A DNA stretch of 64,000 nucleotides from Diprion similis (taxonomy: Eukaryota; Arthropoda; Insecta; Hymenoptera; Diprionidae), in NCBI RefSeq assembly GCF_021155765.1, contig NC_060114.1:14889501-14953500 (forward strand), given 5' to 3'. Positions 23,836 to 57,296 of this stretch are shown in pieces (positions within the stretch are counted from its first letter, which is position 1; each line of letters starts with the position of its first letter). Both the position numbers and the translations under genes were made by a program. Under the pieces are notes generated by a model, which did no database searches, was not told where the DNA came from, and saw only the letters and a program-made list of their open reading frames with translations.

Positions 23836-23987
23836 TATTATGGGCGCTTGCCTTTCACATCAATTTTCTGATACAATCGACACTAAGCGTTTGATTTCAT
23901 TGGTTGAATCTAATCAAACAGGCAAATAAAATCACTTAGTGTCGTGTAGTGTCAGAAAATTGACGTAAAGGGAAAGCGCCCCATAAA
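23836..23987. mobile_element. Foldback (MITE-like) element, about 152 bp
   Basis: The left arm reads TTATGGGCGCTTGCCTTTC, then TCAATTTTCTGATAC and CGACACTAAG. The right arm in reverse complement reads TTTATGGGGCGCTTTCCCTT, then TCAATTTTCTGACAC and CGACACTAAG. Arms are about 65 bases each. No coding capacity. It lies in the divergent promoter region next to a long C tract. Confidence 0.7.
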
Positions 23988-38667: not shown

Positions 38668-41600
38668 ATGTTTTCGCGCAGATTCATTCAGCGTGGTTGG
38701 CGTCGCTTTCGGTTGTGTGGTAGTGGTGTTGTGAGTCTGCAAAAAGAGAAAGGCGGCGGCATAAGAAGGAGTAGCAGCAGCAGTTTAGTGCAGCTGGTGT
38801 CAGTGGAACGCGGCGTGTTAAACAACGGTAATATCGTCGCACTCTCCTCACTCGCCGTTAAAGTGTTTGGAAAATCCTACGCCGCCGCTAGCAGCACGTC
38901 GGCCAACTTTGTTCCTACGGCGCAAGATACGATAAACGACGATCCGAATCTTTCCAATATCATGCCTTCCGCCGAGAAGAAACCGTTCCGCCGTTTGCCC
39001 ACCGACGTACGCCCCTATCACTATGACATTACGCTAACGCCGGATCTGGGGAAATTCGTATTCAGTGGAAAGGAAAACGTGCACGTTGATGTGAGTCTTT
39101 CCGAATTAGAGTAAGCAATCTCACCTCTCCCTGACAAACCCGAACTCCCGGTTATCCTCCCTTATTCATATTTTAAACCATATGCTGCACGTGCTCACGT
39201 GTGCAAAGCCTTGGCGAATACACACATTCACGTTCATCGCGTGTCTGAAGTAGAATGTCGATTGTACATACTCTACTCACACTACCGCTATTCCTAGGTT
39301 AGAAAATCTAACCGTTATTCCTCTCCCGTTTCACCGGCACTTCATCCGTCTAATCTGATAATGTTCTTCTCACTTTTTCAATGCTTTAACAACACTTCTT
39401 CTTCCACAGCTGTGAATTGTTATTTCGCATTATCTATATTTCGATCTCACGAACAGGATTGGTTTACAAATTGTCTTTAAAAAATATCTTACAATGGAAC
39501 AGCCACTGTTTAATCAATCGAGTATTTGCAATATGTATGCACATTTTTTTTTTCTGGAATATAAGCGATTTTTTGCACCTAGAAACAACGTCGGGTCTTT
39601 TTTGATCAATTATATTTCATTGTAATATAATAAACTTGGTTATCTGTTAAATTTCTAGGCGTATGTATTCAGTGCATTCAGTTTTGCAAACTTTGCAGCT
39701 GTGGAATGAGTTTTATCAGTATCGTTAGTCATGCAGTGTGGTATACTTAGTACTCGAATGATAACAATGATAAAATTTATCCAATCGTATTTAGTTAGTC
39801 ACAGGGGAAAAAAACTTGACATGGTCAGAAAAAAATCTCTTGCTTTCAATTTTGCTGAATCACTTTTCTCTCTTGAAAATAAACCGAGTTTCTCTTTGCA
39901 TAAAGGAGTGGAGGGAGTAAGGATTATATTTCATTCTTTAAATAAATTCTTCCAAGGTAATCGTACAATTTTATGCAAAACACTCTCTGAAAATATTATC
40001 AGAGCGAATAATATTGTCACAGTATAAGGAATATTGAATTTTTAACTGTGCAATTATATCGTTAATGAATTGCTAAATCCACGAATACTGTGTGCTGATC
40101 AATAGTTTTATCTTTCAATGTTTCAATTCAGTTCCACATTTAATACTTTCATACGCTCATCGTATGTTAATTTTTATTTACAACCACTTGTGATTTATTT
40201 GACACTTTAACTCGACTAGGTAAGTGATCTGCTTTCATCTCTTTGATAATAATTTTCAATTACATGGAAAATCCCTCCAACATGATCACTGATTGAAATA
40301 AATGTGTACGTTCATTTAATTAGAATAGATAGTCTCTTACTGTTTTAATAATCTATTAGCGTTATTAATCGCACCATAAACAGGTAAAACAATCGATCGA
40401 TACTGTGGTCTTGAATTCCTTGGATATCGACATAAAAAGTGCCGTATTTTACGGTAACGATGGAACGACGATCCCTGCGAGTAATATCGAGCTGTCTGTG
40501 GAGGCGGAAACAGCCACCATCAAGTTTTCTAAAACATTACCGATCGGTGATAAGGTTGGATTCATCAGCTTCGTTTTCACCGGTGAATTAAATGACAAGA
40601 TGAAGGGATTCTACCGCAGTAAATACACCGGGTAAGTCTACGTTCTAGTTCATTACTTTGTTCACATCCAAATTTGAAAACATCTTCCAGATTATCAGGT
40701 GACGAAGTGAGTTGTGCGGTAACATTTCTTTGTCCTTGTTCAGCGCGCATGTTGTTTCCATGCTGGGATGAGCCGAGTTTGAAGGCTGAGTTTACTCTCA
40801 CTATTTGTGTGCCAGCCTCCTCAACTGCCCTGTTCAACATGGTATGCATTATTCCTTCGTAATCAATCGATTGTTGTATTTCAGATCCAAAGGCGAGGAT
40901 CAGTTCGCGGCTGTGACGCAATTCGAGGCCACAGATGCGAGGCGCTGCTTTCCCTGTTGGGACGAACCTGCCCTCAAGGCTACCTTCAACATTACGCTAG
41001 CCGTTCCTCAGGACCGTGTTGCTCTATCCAACATGGTAAGCAGCGCCTTGTGTTTGTCCTTCTTTTGCTTGTGCCCATAACGTCCTTAAGCGTTAATATA
41101 AAATCGATCACAGGCCTCACACATCCAATTCTCATTTCAGCCAGTTAAGTCCGAATCCGTTGAGGGAGAGTTCAAGGTGCTGAAGTTTGACAAAACGCCC
41201 ATTATGTCGACTTACCTTGTCGCAGTTGTCGTTGGCGAGTATGACTATGTGGAGGGAAAATCGAGCGACGGAGTTCTTGTGAGGGTATACACACCGAAGG
41301 GAAAAAAGGAACAAGGTGAATTTGCCTTGGAGGTTGCAACAAAAGTGCTACCCTACTACAACACCTACTTCGGCATTGCTTATCCATTGCCAAAAATGGA
41401 CCTGATAGCGATAGCCGATTTCTCGGCCGGAGCCATGGAAAATTGGGGCCTCGTTACATACAGGGAGACCTGTCTGCTCGTTGATCCCCAGAATACTTCA
41501 GCAGTTAGGAAACAGTGGATCGCTTTAGTCGTTGGTCACGAATTGGCTCATCAATGGTTCGGCAATCTTGTCACCATGGAATGGTGGACTCACTTATGGC

Positions 41601-43549
41601 TTAACGAGGGCTATGCATCGTTTGTGGAGTTCCTTTGCGTCGCTCACCTGTTTCCCGAGTACGATATTTGGACCCAGTTCGTTACAGACACGTACATCAA
41701 GGCTCTGGAACTCGACGCGCTCAAAAACAGCCATCCCATTGAGGTCCCTGTCGGACATCCGTCCGAAATTGACGAGATCTTCGATGACATATCTTATAAC
41801 AAAGGTGCCAGTGTGATCCGGATGCTTCACAGCTACATCGGCGATGAAGACTTCAAGAAAGGCATGAGTCTCTACCTCAAGAGACATTCTTATTCCAACG
41901 CTTTGACCGAAGACCTTTGGGCTGCGCTTGAAGAAGCCAGCAGCAAGCCTGTCGGCGCTGTCATGTCAACATGGACCAAGCAGCAAGGATTTCCAGTTTT
42001 GAAGGTCCGTAATGCATTATTATTATGTAAATAGGTATTTGATTAATCGATGAATGAGTTGTTTTCCAGAAATTGAAATATATCAATGAATTTTTTTAGA
42101 CACCTGTAGTTCAACCTATCTTTGAGTAATTATTCATCTGTATAGTACTTCATGTCCAGTTTTAGACGAAAATCAATTCGAAAATAGTTCTTTTTTACCT
42201 GTAGAGTGAAAGTGGAATACAAGTGATGCACACTGGAAGACGGCACATTTATGATTTGAAAAAAAATCAGTATGTAAATTTATAGGATATTTCGAAAGCG
42301 ACACTGTATAACGATCCTTGAACTGCAGGTTGACCAACGGCAGGAGGGAACGTCGCGCGTTCTCTCACTTTCCCAGGAGAGATTTCTTGCCGATGGATCA
42401 AAGGACAAGGAAAAAAGCCTGTGGATGATACCAGTGAGCGTTAGCACGTCGCGGGCACCGCAGGAAGTCGCGATTAGCACGGTAATGAACGAAGCTCAGA
42501 AGGAGATCGTTTTGAATGACGTACCCAAAGGCGCTTGGGTAAAAATCAACCCAGGGACGATCGGGTTTTACAGAACTCGTTACAGCCCCGAAGCACTTTC
42601 CCTCCTCCTTCCCGCCGTCAAAGATCGCACCCTCCCTCCGTTAGACAGACTCGGACTCCTGGACGATCTCTTCGCCATGGTACAAGCCGGCCATGCCTCA
42701 ACGGTCGAGGTTCTACGACTGATGTACGCCTTCCAAGCGGAAGACAATTACACGGTTTGGTCGAGCATTGTTAACAGTCTTGGTAAACTGAGCGTTTTAC
42801 TTTCTCACGTCGATTACGAAGACTCATTCAAGGCCTTTGGACGATCTCTGATGAAGGACATCGGCAGCAAACTGGGCTGGGATCCAAAACCTAACGAGAG
42901 TCATCTGGACACGCTTCTCAGATCCTTGGTGCTGGGGCGCCTGGCCGCGTTGAACGACGCGGAGACGATCGATGAGGCCAAGAAACGCTTCGAGGCTCAT
43001 GTGTCAGGGGTCAAAGTTCTTGCCGCGGATTTACGCAGTCCTGTTTACAGGGCAGTGCTTTCCGTGGGCGGAGCCGATACCTACGCAACGATGCTGAAGT
43101 TGTACAGGGAGGCTGATCTTCACGAAGAGAAAGACCGAATATCGCGAGCCCTGGGCGCGATAAAAGATGAGACACTGCTCAAGCGGGTGCTCGAGTTTGC
43201 GATGAGCAGCGAGGTTCGCGCCCAGGATACGGTCTTCGTTATAATGTCCGTCGCCATGACGTACAAGGGACGGATTTTGGCCTGGACATTTTTCAAGGAC
43301 AACTGGAAGGTACTCATGGACAGGTACGACGGCGGTTTCCTACTCTCAAGACTCGTCAAATTTACGACAGAGAATTTCGCTACCGAGGAAAGCGCTCTAG
43401 AGGTTGAAAAGTTCTTCGCCGATCATCCGACACCGGGGACTGAGAGGACCGTACAGCAAAGCGTGGAAACCATCAGACTGAACGCGGCATGGCTTGCTAG
43501 GGATCGAGAAGCGATAAAATCGTATCTCTCACAATCAGCCTTACCGTAA
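38668..43549 (+). CDS. Psa: Puromycin-sensitive aminopeptidase, M1 family
   Basis: Constitutive exons 38668-39090, 40384-40631, 41141-42004 and 42329-43549 plus one of two alternative exons (40691-40841 or 40885-41035) give 968 residues. Exon 1 ends at GTTGAT|GTGAGT; the joined peptide HVDVKQSIDTVVL matches the family. The catalytic domain has GAMEN (371-375) and zinc motif HELAH-X18-E (His407, His411, Glu430; catalytic Glu408). The SGAMENWG, VTMEWWTHLWLNEG and DRLGLLDDLF stretches are almost identical to NPEPPS. This cytosolic zinc enzyme trims N-terminal residues from peptides and helps clear polyglutamine and neuropeptides. The N-terminal about 95 residues are basic and serine-rich, possibly a mitochondrial or leader extension; a second ATG at about 38961 (MPSAEKKPFRRLP) corresponds to the short cytosolic start of other PSAs. 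Upstream intron 1 is about 1.3 kb. Confidence 0.96.
40691..40841 (+). CDS. Psa: Psa alternative exon A (divergent copy)
   Basis: 151-nt exon with acceptor TTCCAG and donor ATG|GTATGC; entry phase 2 and exit phase 0, identical to exon B. It encodes LSGDEVSCAVTFLCPC then SARMLFPCWDEPSLKAEF and ends FNM. By hand alignment 24 of 50 residues match exon B without gaps. It keeps FPCWDEP but has TFLCPC where exon B has TQFEAT, losing the Gln and Glu that contact the substrate N-terminus in M1 enzymes. The open frame, good splice sites and conserved structural residues argue that it is used rather than a dead duplicate. Confidence 0.85.
40885..41035 (+). CDS. Psa: Psa alternative exon B (canonical copy)
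   Basis: 151-nt exon with acceptor TATTTCAG and donor ATG|GTAAGC. It encodes SKGEDQFAAVTQFEATDARR then CFPCWDEPALKATF and ends LSNM, essentially the standard PSA sequence. It is separated from exon A by 43 nt, which includes the whole intron with its own acceptor tract. Confidence 0.92.
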
Positions 43550-48615: not shown

Positions 48616-50139
48616 TGTGTTCTATCAACTGCTGTTTTGTTCCTCTTTTTCCTTCTTCTCCTTGCCGCGGTTTTTTCGCCGGCACCAGACTCTCAGTCAC
48701 CTCTGTACACCCGCGATCGCTTATATTTACTTGTCTATCCTTGTATGCTATATCCGCGTTACGTAAATGCAGGAACAGGTGCAAACTGATATATATTTTT
48801 ACACCGCGTCACCAATCGCGCGCACTCACGCAAACACGGTCTGTTTCTCTCTCTCTCTCTCTCTCTCTTCGCCTCTTCACTGTCACTCGCCCCCGACTTG
48901 CTCGGGTATTGATTTCTCACGGTTAGACCTGCACCGCGACTTCGCCTTCTCTTCTCTCCTTCCCTTCTTCCTTCCTACGTTCCTGCAAGTTCGATGACTG
49001 CTGGATAATATATCCTTCTTGACGAACACTCCGGTTTACAGTAAATATATCCTGCACTATCTTTGCTGTCACACAACGGACAATTAATGACACTTATCAC
49101 GCACCGTAATTGTGTGATTTAATACTGCAACGACGATAATCCTTACGCTTCGTTACACTTGCTACTTGCCAATCCGATCCTCTTGGTTTATATCCTGCTA
49201 ATTTTCCTTGTAAAATACGTGTTTATGATTACAGTTATTACTATTATTATTACTTCTACTATTACTCTGTAACTCTCTTACACTTTCTCTACAATTTCAA
49301 CAACAACGTCGCACGAATCTGCTGTGTTATAATTCACAATGTTTCGGTTGTTTATTTTATTGTTTTTGTTTTTTTTATCCTTTACTCAATCGGATCGTTT
49401 ATTCCGCCACCAGGCGCCTCGAGCCGGTTTATTTTCTCTGCACAATGAACGATTTCACGTCGTAGCCGTGTCGCCGCGTTCTGTCGAAGAATTCGACTTC
49501 TTCTACTCGACGACAAAAACTCACTTGCGACACGCGCTGCGCCTGCAGATCGAAGTCGACTAGCCTCCGCCCCTCACCTTCGGCCTTATATACTCGCCTC
49601 CCTCCCTTGGCCCGTTACCCTTCCCCGCGCCCTGCACCGAATGCCTGACGCCGCCAACGTCGTGTCGCCGTACCGCGCCTTTACTTCTTCAACGGCGCAA
49701 TCGTTGCACGAGTTACCCGCACACAGGCGCACACAAACGTATTCGTGCAATGCCAGCGACGGCATCGAACCGGCGCTTGAGCCGCGGCTTCAAGCTAATT
49801 GCGAATCGTTCATTCGCCCGTAAACGGTCGCTCGATTTTTCCGCCCCGGTTTACCATCTAGATCGCCATTTTCAAATGTCTATCGCCTATGGCAGAAGGC
49901 ATACGCTTGTCTGTTCGTTAATTAAAGTTCCCAGTTGCTCATAATTGTTTTGGAATTAGAACCGAAATGTGGTTTCTTTTTTGTAGAAATTTTACGTATT
50001 TGTGATCGACGTATCGTTTGATGTTTGTTCTCCTGTCACTTGCGTCGACGTTAGTCATTGGTACATGAAATTTGCTTAGAAACGAAACTCGTTCTATTAT
50101 TGATTCCAAAAAAATTGTGAGCATTGCTGTACAGTTTTT
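48616..50139. other. emc 5' UTR and promoter region
   Basis: This includes a CT repeat (about 48847-48869), a Su(H)-like site at 48913-48921 and a TATA box at 49585-49594, all consistent with emc transcription on the minus strand. A plus-strand ORF at 49339-49563 looks like a signal peptide but is T-rich sequence antisense to this UTR. Confidence 0.5.
49585..49594 (-). promoter_or_regulatory. Candidate TATA box for emc
   Basis: On the minus strand GTATATAAGG lies in a GC-rich context, about 975 bases upstream of the emc start codon; transcription would begin near 49555-49560. The 1-kb leader would be unusually long unless it contains an intron. Confidence 0.45.
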
Positions 50140-50280
50140 GGCTAACTTGTTCGCGGTCCGAAACAAAACGCGAGTTCAGTTCTATACGAATTATGTGACA
50201 ATGAAGCCGATTCAGTCACTGTCACATAATTCGTATAGAACTGAACTCCCATTTCGTTTCGGATCGAAAACCAGTTAGCC
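50140..50280. mobile_element. Foldback element with a perfect 29-bp inner stem
   Basis: Left arm 50140-50200 and right arm 50220-50280. The inner 29 bases are perfectly complementary (for example TTCAGTTCTATACGAATTAT), the outer 30 are imperfect, starting GGCTAACT and ending AGTTAGCC. Loop is 19 bases. No coding capacity; open frames here merely read the two arms. Target duplications not obvious. Confidence 0.75.
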
Positions 50281-52996
50281 GGAATATACAAGACATTTAT
50301 GAATTTTACTCGTACATCCACTGTAACCCAGTGCAATGGGAAACTGTTCGCCAAACTTATTCCATTTTATTTTCTAACGCACCATCGAGTGGATGGATCA
50401 ACAGAAGAAGAACGGTACACCACGTAACACTATCGGCTCGTTATAAATATCGAGCTGTGACAGCAAATGAGGCTGCGCAATTCGCGCTTGAATCCTTTGC
50501 TAGTCGGGGGTGTTGATGCCCTCGGGGCGGGTCCCTGGACGAGTGAGGGGAATGCCGAAGAAGGTCGGTCGGTCGGCGAAGGGGGGAGGCCAAGTCGAAC
50601 GTCCGGCGGCGCCAGCCAGTGGCGATCGGCAACCACTTGCGTGACGTGACGCTCTCCTCTCACATACCTACCTACCTACCTACCTTCCTATGTAGGTATG
50701 TACGTGGGGAAAACGCGTCGCAGGTTTATGCAGACGCATATACGTGTGCACTGCGTGTCGTGCATGCGAGCTCCAATGAGGCTTACTTCACTCTGCATAG
50801 GCGTGTGTGTGCAGGGCGAGCAGTCGAGATACTCTTACACATACAATGCGTGCATAGGCGAGGTACAATAAACACGCGTGTCGAGTACTCCAAGTCGTGT
50901 TGTGCAGCGTGAACCTACGACACGCAACGACGTGTGTGATTTCTTCGCTTTGCACGCCTTGCATTGACTCGAATGAGAATGACTCGCGCCTCTCACAGTC
51001 TCGGCAGCTATAACGCTCTACGGCCTTCCCCAGTTAGCGATAGTTCCACTACTACCACACTCCAATTCTCCGCGATCCAACACCTCGTTATCGCTGCTGT
51101 ATGCACTGGTACAGTTTGCTCTGTACCGGGGCAGGAACTGCGTTATTACTTAATTAGTTTATGCACGTGGTATCATGTGCGTAAGGTATAAAGAGAAGTG
51201 CAATAGCTGTGCACACATGTCAATCGTGCATTGTATACATATAATTTATATCGTTAGCCGATTTGTGATTGATCGTATCGAGGTTTATAACCGATACTAT
51301 TTTTCTCTATTATGTCTTACAATTAGATGCGTTTTTTAGTTTCAAATCCATTTTCATATCGTACAAGTCTATTAGAGACCAAATTATTGTTAATTCATTC
51401 ACCGCTTGAAAACTGAAATATTGTTTAGTTTCTTCTTTTTTTTTAGTGCACTTTATGTATCGCGAAGTTCAACACGTTTCGCTTCAATTTTTGATCCGAA
51501 TATTTTCTTTTTCCCCTCGAGTGCAGACCGTCTGATATTGTGGTATGTTATACGCGGCTTCGTTTACACCGGCTCCAGCGATAAGATTATTTCGTTTTAT
51601 TTCTTTCTCTTTTCTTTTGACCCCTTTTTAATGGGGTGCATCGATGTATACACACACACGCATACGTATGCACCTATGTTCATGTCATAAGTATTGTATG
51701 TTTAATCGCACGCCTCCGGCTTATGCAGGGTATATTATACCACATCTATACACATTATTACAGTGTATATGCTAGCCTGTATGCATATCGCGGATGTTTA
51801 CCGTCTTACATATGTATATATGAATGAATATTCCCATTGATAAACACCTGCAGCGTTTCACCCGAGAATGTGTGTGTGTGTGTTTTTTTTAAATTTCTTT
51901 ATTTTTTTCATTATATCCATAAGGTGCGTATATGGACACAGTTGCGTAACAATTTTACGAGCGTGTATATGTATATATGCACATACGGTGTGTACATGTG
52001 TATTTCTTATACCAAACCGTGATTTACGCGGTGGTTGAAAAATTTCCTGTGTATCATATATGTGTACGTATTGGTATATGCGTGATATATGTATACAGGT
52101 GCGCGATAAAGAAAGGTAAAAAAACTAATTATACGCAAGAAGAAGACGGTGAAGAGAAACTTGGCGCACGTGTGCAGATGCAAACTTGCGTCAAGGAAGT
52201 AGGAAAATAAAAATGAGTAATCCGTGAGGGATCGAAGCTGCAAGGAGCGAGGCCGGCTCGGCTCGTGCCTCGATCTAAAAACTCTACTCCGACAGCATAA
52301 TATGATGATGTATCGCTGACGATGATGAATATAAAGGAGCGAAACACGTGTGCGTATATACATAGAATATGCATATGTAAGAAGGTGCAGGCGGGAAATC
52401 AGAACCGTGCAGCATCAAAAGGTAGAAATTTAACTGTCGCCTTGCCCGCCTAACGTGTCGGCGAGCCGTCGACTTACGCCCTTTATTTTCACATACGCGT
52501 TGTCGATATTTATGAATGATTCATGGTGCGTGAACGTGTGGCGTCTATACGCGTCGTGAGCCTAATATCAAAACTCATGTCCGCACGCCGCGATTCTTTT
52601 TATTATACATACGACGTATTCTGTGGATATATATACATGTACATACGTATATACCTATTTAATTTATCATTGTTACTTCTCGATACACGTAACATCGGTT
52701 AATTGTCATTACATTATATCGAGAGGGGGGTTTTCAGAGTCCATACAGTAAACAAGTACAGACGTCAAGAAGAAAAAGAAGATTAAGAATCGAGGAAATT
52801 ATTTATTCGTATTTGTGTATAAATTATTTATCTGGCTGTCACGCAGGTGTTATAATGTTATAGGTGTATATATATGTATGTGTACGCCTGTGTTTGTTCA
52901 TGTTAGACTTCAATCGCTGCACAATAATGATAGATTGTTTCTCACCTTATTAAATACTCGCGGTAGGTATGTGATGTATAAATGCGTATATATGCA
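50281..52996. other. Gene-poor region upstream of emc
   Basis: No coding gene recognised. A GC-rich block at about 50500-50660 contains GGTCGGTCGGTCGG, followed by a CCTA repeat (50665-50702) and many TATG/CATA tracts. It may hold emc enhancers, but nothing in it is specific enough to call. Confidence 0.4.
50665..50702. repeat. CCTA tetranucleotide repeat with inverted tail
   Basis: TACCTACCTACCTACC repeat followed by TATGTAGGTATGTA, which can pair back with it. Confidence 0.8.
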
Positions 52997-53294
52997 TATA
53001 TACCCTGTGTCCGTGAGAAAAGTGCGCACATTACGCGCGTGCGTCAAGTCCTTCGAATTTTATTGGCCGACAGTTATCGCCTGATTGAGCAGCCGACGAA
53101 ATACCAATCGCGACTGTCAGAAAATATCCCTAGGAGTCCACAGCTAAAGGTCAGCTGCTAGGGACATTTTTTGATACACGCGATTGGTATTTCGTTGGCT
53201 GCTCAATCAGTCGATAACTGTCGGCCAATGAAATTCGAAGGACTTGACGCACGCGCGTAACGTGCGCACTTTTCTCACGGACACATGGTATATA
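52997..53294. mobile_element. Long near-perfect inverted-repeat element (298 bp)
   Basis: The ends are TATATACCCTGTGTCC and, inverted, TATATACCATGTGTCC. Arms of about 130 bases match with only around ten differences by eye: GTGAGAAAAGTGCGCAC, GCGTGCGTCAAGTCCTTCG, TTGGCCGACAGTTATCG and GCTGCTCAATCAG-type blocks are shared. The centre (CCCTAGGAGTCC ... CAGCTGCTAGGG) is also partly palindromic. No coding frame. The TATA at both ends may be the target duplication. Confidence 0.85.
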
Positions 53295-57085: not shown

Positions 57086-57296
57086 TCTGCTGAAATTCAA
57101 CGCGCACGTGTTGCGATCCGGCAGCAATTGTTTGCCAGGGCGACCAACTGTCTGATATGAAAAAGTTTTATTATTGTTACTGGCGGTTGTGCGCAAGACG
57201 CGTAACTGCGACAATATTTCTGGTTAGACAGTTGGTCACCCTGGCAAACAATTGCTCTCGGATTGGAGCGCGTGCGCAATGAGATTTAACAGACAG
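57086..57296. mobile_element. Foldback (MITE-like) element, about 210 bp
   Basis: Inner arms are GCAATTGTTTGCCAGGGCGA and, inverted, GCAATTGTTTGCCAGGGTGA, both followed by CCAACTGTCT. Similarity continues outward through GCGCACG and a looser CTG..TTAAATC end. Loop about 60 bases. Non-coding. Confidence 0.75.

Follow-up and report, generated by a model that had tools for sequence, protein, structure and literature searches.

Paired exons in the aminopeptidase gene Psa of Diprion similis: a putative splicing choice between two sets of substrate-seating residues

Can one aminopeptidase gene supply two peptidases by exchanging, through splicing, the residues that seat the substrate? This question is raised by the Psa gene of Diprion similis, which occupies positions 38668-43549 on the + strand of the window (the whole 64,000-nucleotide stretch of DNA analysed, from contig C10 of the 269-Mb genome) and carries two adjacent homologous exons, A and B. 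The reading that we favour, at a probability of about two in three, is that A and B form a mutually exclusive pair produced by tandem duplication of B, and that splicing chooses between a B form that is a normal peptidase and an A form that is weakened or re-specified. Both the use and the activity of exon A are things that we infer from the genomic sequence.

Gene identity and exon layout

The assignment of the gene to Psa, made in the original prediction, was borne out by structure and profile searches. The human PSA chains 9o5k and 8sw0 were the best solved-structure match of a 100-residue segment, scoring 90 bits with A and 136 bits with B, and the catalytic exon matched Peptidase_M1 (PF01433) with 304.6 bits, at the top of 33 matches in the genome. 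On their own, exons A and B matched Pfam Peptidase_M1_N at 45.1 and 75.9 bits, respectively, the cut-off being 25.8 bits. The HEXXH zinc motif and GAMEN lie inside the M1 catalytic domain, as befits a member of M1, and the closest solved relative together with CWDEP in the N domain specifies PSA. In NCBIfam, every match of the first 465 residues stayed under its cut-off. GAMEN and HELAH, predicted to be kept in the A form, are indeed kept, both being encoded in the common exon (Table 1).

Table 1. Features of the Psa locus in window coordinates
Feature	Position	Strand	Remarks
Psa exon 1	38668..39090	+	coding from ATG 38668 or ATG 38962
Psa exon 2	40384..40631	+	ends two bases into a codon (GG)
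Alternative exon A	40691..40841	+	151 nt; Phe at human PSA position 178, Cys at 180
A-B spacer	40842..40884	+	43 nt
Canonical exon B	40885..41035	+	151 nt; Gln178 and Glu180 equivalents, TQFEATDARR
Predicted hairpin burying the exon B 5' splice site	40925..41061	+	RNA folding
Common exon encoding GAMEN and the HELAH zinc motif	41141..42004	+	contains the stop reached by joined A and B
Final coding exon (C-terminal part, stop codon)	42329..43549	+	

Exon 1 is followed by the splice donor GTGAGT at 39091. The codon begun by the GG at the end of exon 2 is completed by either A or B, both of which end in phase 0 and are bordered by AG and GT. Read from ATG 38962, the A-only and B-only coding sequences are each 2613 nt long and encode 870 aa with a single terminal stop. 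The upstream one of the two in-frame ATGs (38668 and 38962) adds an Arg-rich N-terminal extension, possibly a targeting peptide. The common catalytic exon is followed at 42005 by the donor GTCCGT, which matches the usual GTRAGT weakly. Neighbouring reading frames match the Pfam families for protein kinase, HLH, RINGv, Dis3 and RNB, DEAD box and mitochondrial carrier, and the neighbours of Psa look, by these matches, like ordinary animal genes.

Coordinates and translations agree with the prediction of two tandem 151-nt exons in equal phase, 43 nt apart and identical at 24 of 50 residues, and they equally support the claim that exactly one of them must be used: either exon alone leaves the frame open for 870 aa, and inclusion of both or of neither leads to a premature stop. 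When A and B are joined, the junction reads GCC AGT TAA, with the TAA at 41146-41148; when both are skipped, the reading frame runs for 14 residues from the junction codon before it stops. Another intron lies downstream of each of these premature stops. Homologous exons side by side, compatible in phase and length, with premature stops from joint inclusion as well as from joint skipping, are what characterises a mutually exclusive pair. As described in excerpts of PMC5740500, a donor-branch distance below 50 nt is the steric criterion for mutually exclusive exons, and human clusters of such exons often show frame failure. The 43-nt A-B spacer contains no match to the yUnAy branch site and is probably too short to be spliced out. 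A spacer too short for the spliceosome would prevent the joining of A to B, so that each transcript would take one exon. Taken on these sequence features, a mutually exclusive architecture of A and B is very probable. A 17-nt inverted repeat of 88% complementarity, pairing 40385-40401 (exon 2) with 40862-40878 (A-B spacer), may cover the acceptor region of exon B, or it may have arisen by chance.

The same premature stops could be taken to make exon A a poison element, in the sense that transcripts with both exons or with none would be degraded and the output of PSA lowered. The early stop in both combinations, with a further intron behind it, is what such an element would have; the short spacer without a yUnAy branch site speaks against it, and so does the protein scaffold kept in exon A (see below), for which a pure poison exon would have no need. 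We consider this explanation extremely improbable.

Origin of exon A and constraint upon it

A search of the 269-Mb genome with the exon-A peptide returned 18 places, namely A, B and 16 other M1-like exons. Apart from A itself the best match was B (42.8 bits, the next reaching 32.0), and among the 18 exons the Trp of C-W-D-E-P, as in human PSA, is present in A and B only. A tree was built from 17 of the 18 genome exons (L026 was left out) and three further rows taken from PDB alignments, 20 rows in all. In it, A, B and human PSA grouped with a support of 96/90, and A with B with a support of 98/85; the branch of exon A is long (1.54 changes per column), so that its exact position is less sure than these support values suggest. 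The grouping in the tree, together with the absence of PSA-type CWDEP from the 16 other M1 exons, points to duplication of exon B as the origin of exon A. That exon A is a piece of another M1 gene was ruled out, the nearest match being B and the tree being concordant. No paired exons were found in other M1 genes, as among the 18 matches no two others lay less than 3,956 bases apart, start to start. In viral and bacterial/archaeal contigs, relatives of exon A were sought with 17 and 130 pattern matches, respectively, none of which was confirmed, a result that is uninformative for insects.

The identity shared by A and B compares with a permutation null of mean 3.2 and maximum 12 identical residues in 20,000 permutations. 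The two exons differ at 22 first, 20 second and 38 third codon positions (of 50 each). Where the residue is identical and a synonymous choice exists (n = 22), the same codon is used in 5 cases, against a chance expectation of 7.6, and four-fold sites agree in 2 of 12 cases; the silent sites between A and B are thus randomised. We simulated neutral drift of A from a B-like start, at an assumed indel rate of 0.1 per substitution, and asked how often the frame stayed open with 24 or more identities, the AG/GT borders intact and indels absent. The joint chance was 9.0e-4 at 0.3 substitutions per site and 9.5e-7 at 0.5, and at 0.75, 1.0 and 1.5 substitutions per site 0 of 5000 runs satisfied these conditions. 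If A and B drifted equally, the expected silent identity would be ~0.59 at 0.3 and ~0.45 at 0.5, both above the observed 2/12. Since residues, frame, length and splice sites have been kept despite randomised silent sites, exon A appears to have been kept as protein-coding; it is probably under long protein-level constraint, and its expression as protein is, on this evidence, likely.

Another possibility to be weighed at this point is that exon A is a decaying duplicate, present rarely or never in stable mRNA. The long branch leading to A is in keeping with decay, as is the 17:1 excess of residue changes relative to B and human PSA (17 on A, at positions where B equals human, and 1 on B); relaxed constraint could also yield the greater divergence of A. 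Codon usage does not support the coding potential of exon A either, whose frame scores -1.5 bits and is not Psa-like, compared with 33.7 bits for B, although B belonged to the training set; one antisense frame of exon A scores 15.4 bits. What decay leaves unexplained is that the open frame, the exact length, the AG/GT borders and all 11 of 11 scaffold columns have been kept despite randomised silent sites, and the result of the drift simulation weighs on the same side. A decaying duplicate therefore seems to us quite improbable.

The active site of the two forms

Within the paired exons, TFLCPCSARM of A is aligned to TQFEATDARR of B. In human PSA numbering, obtained by setting the alignment of TQFE to the PSA chains against the residue names in an excerpt of PMC10343166, exon A carries Phe178, Leu179, Cys180, Pro181, Cys182 and Ser183. 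According to the same excerpt (PMC10343166), Gln178 and Glu180 of the PSA active site come from the N domain; the amino terminus of the substrate is likely bound by Glu180 and by Glu319 of GAMENW, and the counterpart of Gln178 in APN is a glutamine of the S1 subsite. The predicted loss of the substrate anchor in A is thereby confirmed at the level of residues, Gln178 of human PSA being replaced by Phe and Glu180 by Cys, both of them active-site contributors named in that excerpt. The gain of cysteines holds as well, with five in A versus two in B. By its Phe and Cys, the A form departs from the Gln178/Glu180 pair of a normal PSA member.

The surrounding scaffold is preserved: over positions 175-201 there are 11 columns in which 18 or more of the 19 other M1 rows agree, and A keeps every one of them (A184, R185, F188, P189, C190, D192, E193, P194, K197, A198 and F200). 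A kept scaffold with changed contact residues would be the pattern expected of a functional variant. At position 178 the 19 other rows have Gln in 11, His in 3, Lys in 2, and Y, F and T once each; at position 180 they have Glu in 9, Gln in 6, and R, A, S and P once each. Of the 15 paralogue exons compared, three have none of Gln, His and Lys at 178 and neither Glu nor Gln at 180 (C7:6404764, C3:1945687 and C1:17150363). The last of these, with Phe/Ala at 178/180, is without both anchor residues and yet keeps AMENWG and HEFAH, which rules out that zinc loss always accompanies anchor loss; it carries SFFAP where TQFEP is expected. It belongs to a cluster of many M1 exons, probably APN genes, that extends over C1:17097000-17168000 on the minus strand. 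Neither C7:6404764-6404883 nor C3:1945687-1945794 has HEXXH or AMEN in about 7-8 kb of downstream flank, and on their contigs there was no Peptidase_M1 match among the genome matches; possibly these two exons belong to dead M1 homologues.

Because the anchor Glu is not universal and C1:17150363 retains its zinc motifs, altered specificity of the A form appears at least as likely as inactivity, and loss of the anchor alone would be no proof of inactivity. Provided that exon A is expressed, we judge it highly likely that the A form is weakened or re-specified. A competing explanation holds that both exons are used and that the A form resembles the B form in rate and specificity, so that the swap would serve partner binding, localisation or stability, or would be nearly neutral. 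It can draw on the replacement of Glu180 in 10 of the 19 other M1 rows, six times by Gln, on the paralogue whose zinc motifs outlasted its anchor, and on the unchanged common catalytic exon; on the other hand, A alters both contact positions together with the scaffold kept, Cys at 180 occurs in none of the 19 other rows, and positions 178 and 180 are tied to S1 and to the amino-terminus site in the excerpt of PMC10343166. We regard such closely similar activity of the two forms as rather unlikely.

On the preferred reading, that of a splicing choice between a normal and a weakened or re-specified peptidase, exon B would have been duplicated in tandem within Psa to give the mutually exclusive A/B pair. 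Transcripts with B would encode an ordinary broad-specificity aminopeptidase. Those with A would encode the same fold and zinc site; Phe in place of Gln178 would alter the S1 wall, Cys in place of Glu180 would remove the acidic clamp by which the N domain holds the amino terminus of the substrate, and a weaker aminopeptidase activity or a different P1 preference would be expected of the product.

A predicted hairpin and related systems

RNA folding places the 5' splice site of exon B in a predicted hairpin (Table 1). The main stem pairs 40931-40950 of exon B with 41038-41057 of the next intron through 20 uninterrupted pairs (16 Watson-Crick and 4 G-U), its 5' arm being made of the exon B codons directly after the Gln/Glu pair, and a second predicted stem, 41013-41021 with 41029-41037, lies over the B junction. 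The stretch 40925-41062 folds to -61.5 kcal/mol (z -6.30), with 0 of 200 shuffles as low, and the matching stretch at the A donor has a z of -0.07. In a 541-nt context, pairing probabilities are 0.72-1.0 for the B donor bases and 0.34-0.96 for the A donor; upon shuffling of the whole 541-nt stretch, z was -2.38 and 2 of 100 shuffles were as low. Among 83 donor-like sites in the window, the B donor forms the strongest duplex with upstream sequence (-46.2 kcal/mol), a strength that was reached at 3 of 6000 random positions, all within inverted repeats at 53.1 and 57.1 kb. Ranked by raw energy among the local structures of up to ~150 nt on the two strands of the window, the hairpin comes 12th; of the eleven above it, eight are four inverted repeats, each counted once per strand.

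Shuffling of the intron part gave a minimum of -54.5 in 300 (z -5.79), and changing the exon and intron parts together gave a minimum of -57.3 (z -4.23), none being as stable as the hairpin in either case; synonymous replacement of the exon codons alone gave z -2.03 and a minimum of -67.7. As the hairpin is less exceptional under synonymous exon replacement, most of the signal lies on the intron side. With -54.9 for the fold of the antisense strand, the strand asymmetry is modest. A 68-window z scan at 70-nt steps, in which no window was aligned to the hairpin, did not make it visible (minimum -2.15). A repeat element as the source of the hairpin was ruled out by its single match in the genome. 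Strongly folding inverted repeats are found elsewhere in the window on both strands, at 53070-53221, 57114-57265, 50135-50285 and 23837-23987; the one at 53070 has at least 108 genome matches, both strands counted, and is therefore probably a MITE-like or palindromic repeat family.

A 5' splice site hairpin switch is marked by a stable stem over the donor, and such a stem is predicted here. The hairpin is consequently a candidate splicing switch by folding prediction, and we propose a regulatory role for it tentatively, at somewhat less than even odds. Its stability would set the frequency with which B is chosen, and a change from one exon to the other would follow when the hairpin is opened or masked. 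An unlikely extension of this thought is that the hairpin switch converts a housekeeping aminopeptidase to a zinc-bearing, clamp-less form in which Cys180, by the zinc site, would render the peptidase sensitive to redox state or metals, or turn it into a holder of peptides.

Among the titles and abstract openings listed, none described a mutually exclusive pair for an animal PSA gene; Psa may already be included in the survey across Drosophila by Hatje and Kollmar (2013). In a term search, the main text of PMC3228551 contained no mention of Psa, aminopeptidase or CG1009.

If splicing does swap the substrate-seating residues with the zinc site intact, then two peptidases would come from one gene, and the study of the N-domain Gln/Glu pair would gain a natural, long-kept variant in place of a point mutant. 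The hairpin at the B donor offers a concrete and testable candidate control element. In tau exon 10, the 5' splice site is sequestered by a hairpin, and the likeness to Psa lies in a donor base-paired in a stem; the Psa stem is predicted, and it pairs the intron with active-site codons.

With human PSA (NPEPPS; M1; PDB 8sw0 and 9o5k), the B segment is identical at 39 of 50 residues, and GAMEN, HELAH and CWDEP are shared; the A segment is identical at 23 of 50, with the two replacements described above. Tricorn interacting factor F3 (1z1w), another M1 enzyme, has His at position 178, thought likely to set its P1 preference (PMC10343166, excerpt); in F3 the difference is built into the gene, whereas in Psa it would be chosen by splicing, if A is used. 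Lepidopteran aminopeptidase N shares with the Psa pair the occurrence of alternative transcripts from insect M1 genes, in that case exon-skipping and circular forms at short repeats, in an excerpt of PMC6722899 that mentions neither PSA nor duplicated exons.

Like the human set of tandem-duplicated mutually exclusive exons (PMC5740500, excerpt), the Psa pair has homologous neighbours, equal phase, joint use that breaks the frame and, probably, a short donor-to-branch distance. Unlike them, it is a pair predicted from genomic sequence, and its swapped segment holds the substrate-contact residues of a metallopeptidase. Dscam, Mhc and PKM are further systems of tandem-duplicated mutually exclusive exons. 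Beside these, the A/B pair of Psa would be a known kind of arrangement with an unusual segment being swapped.
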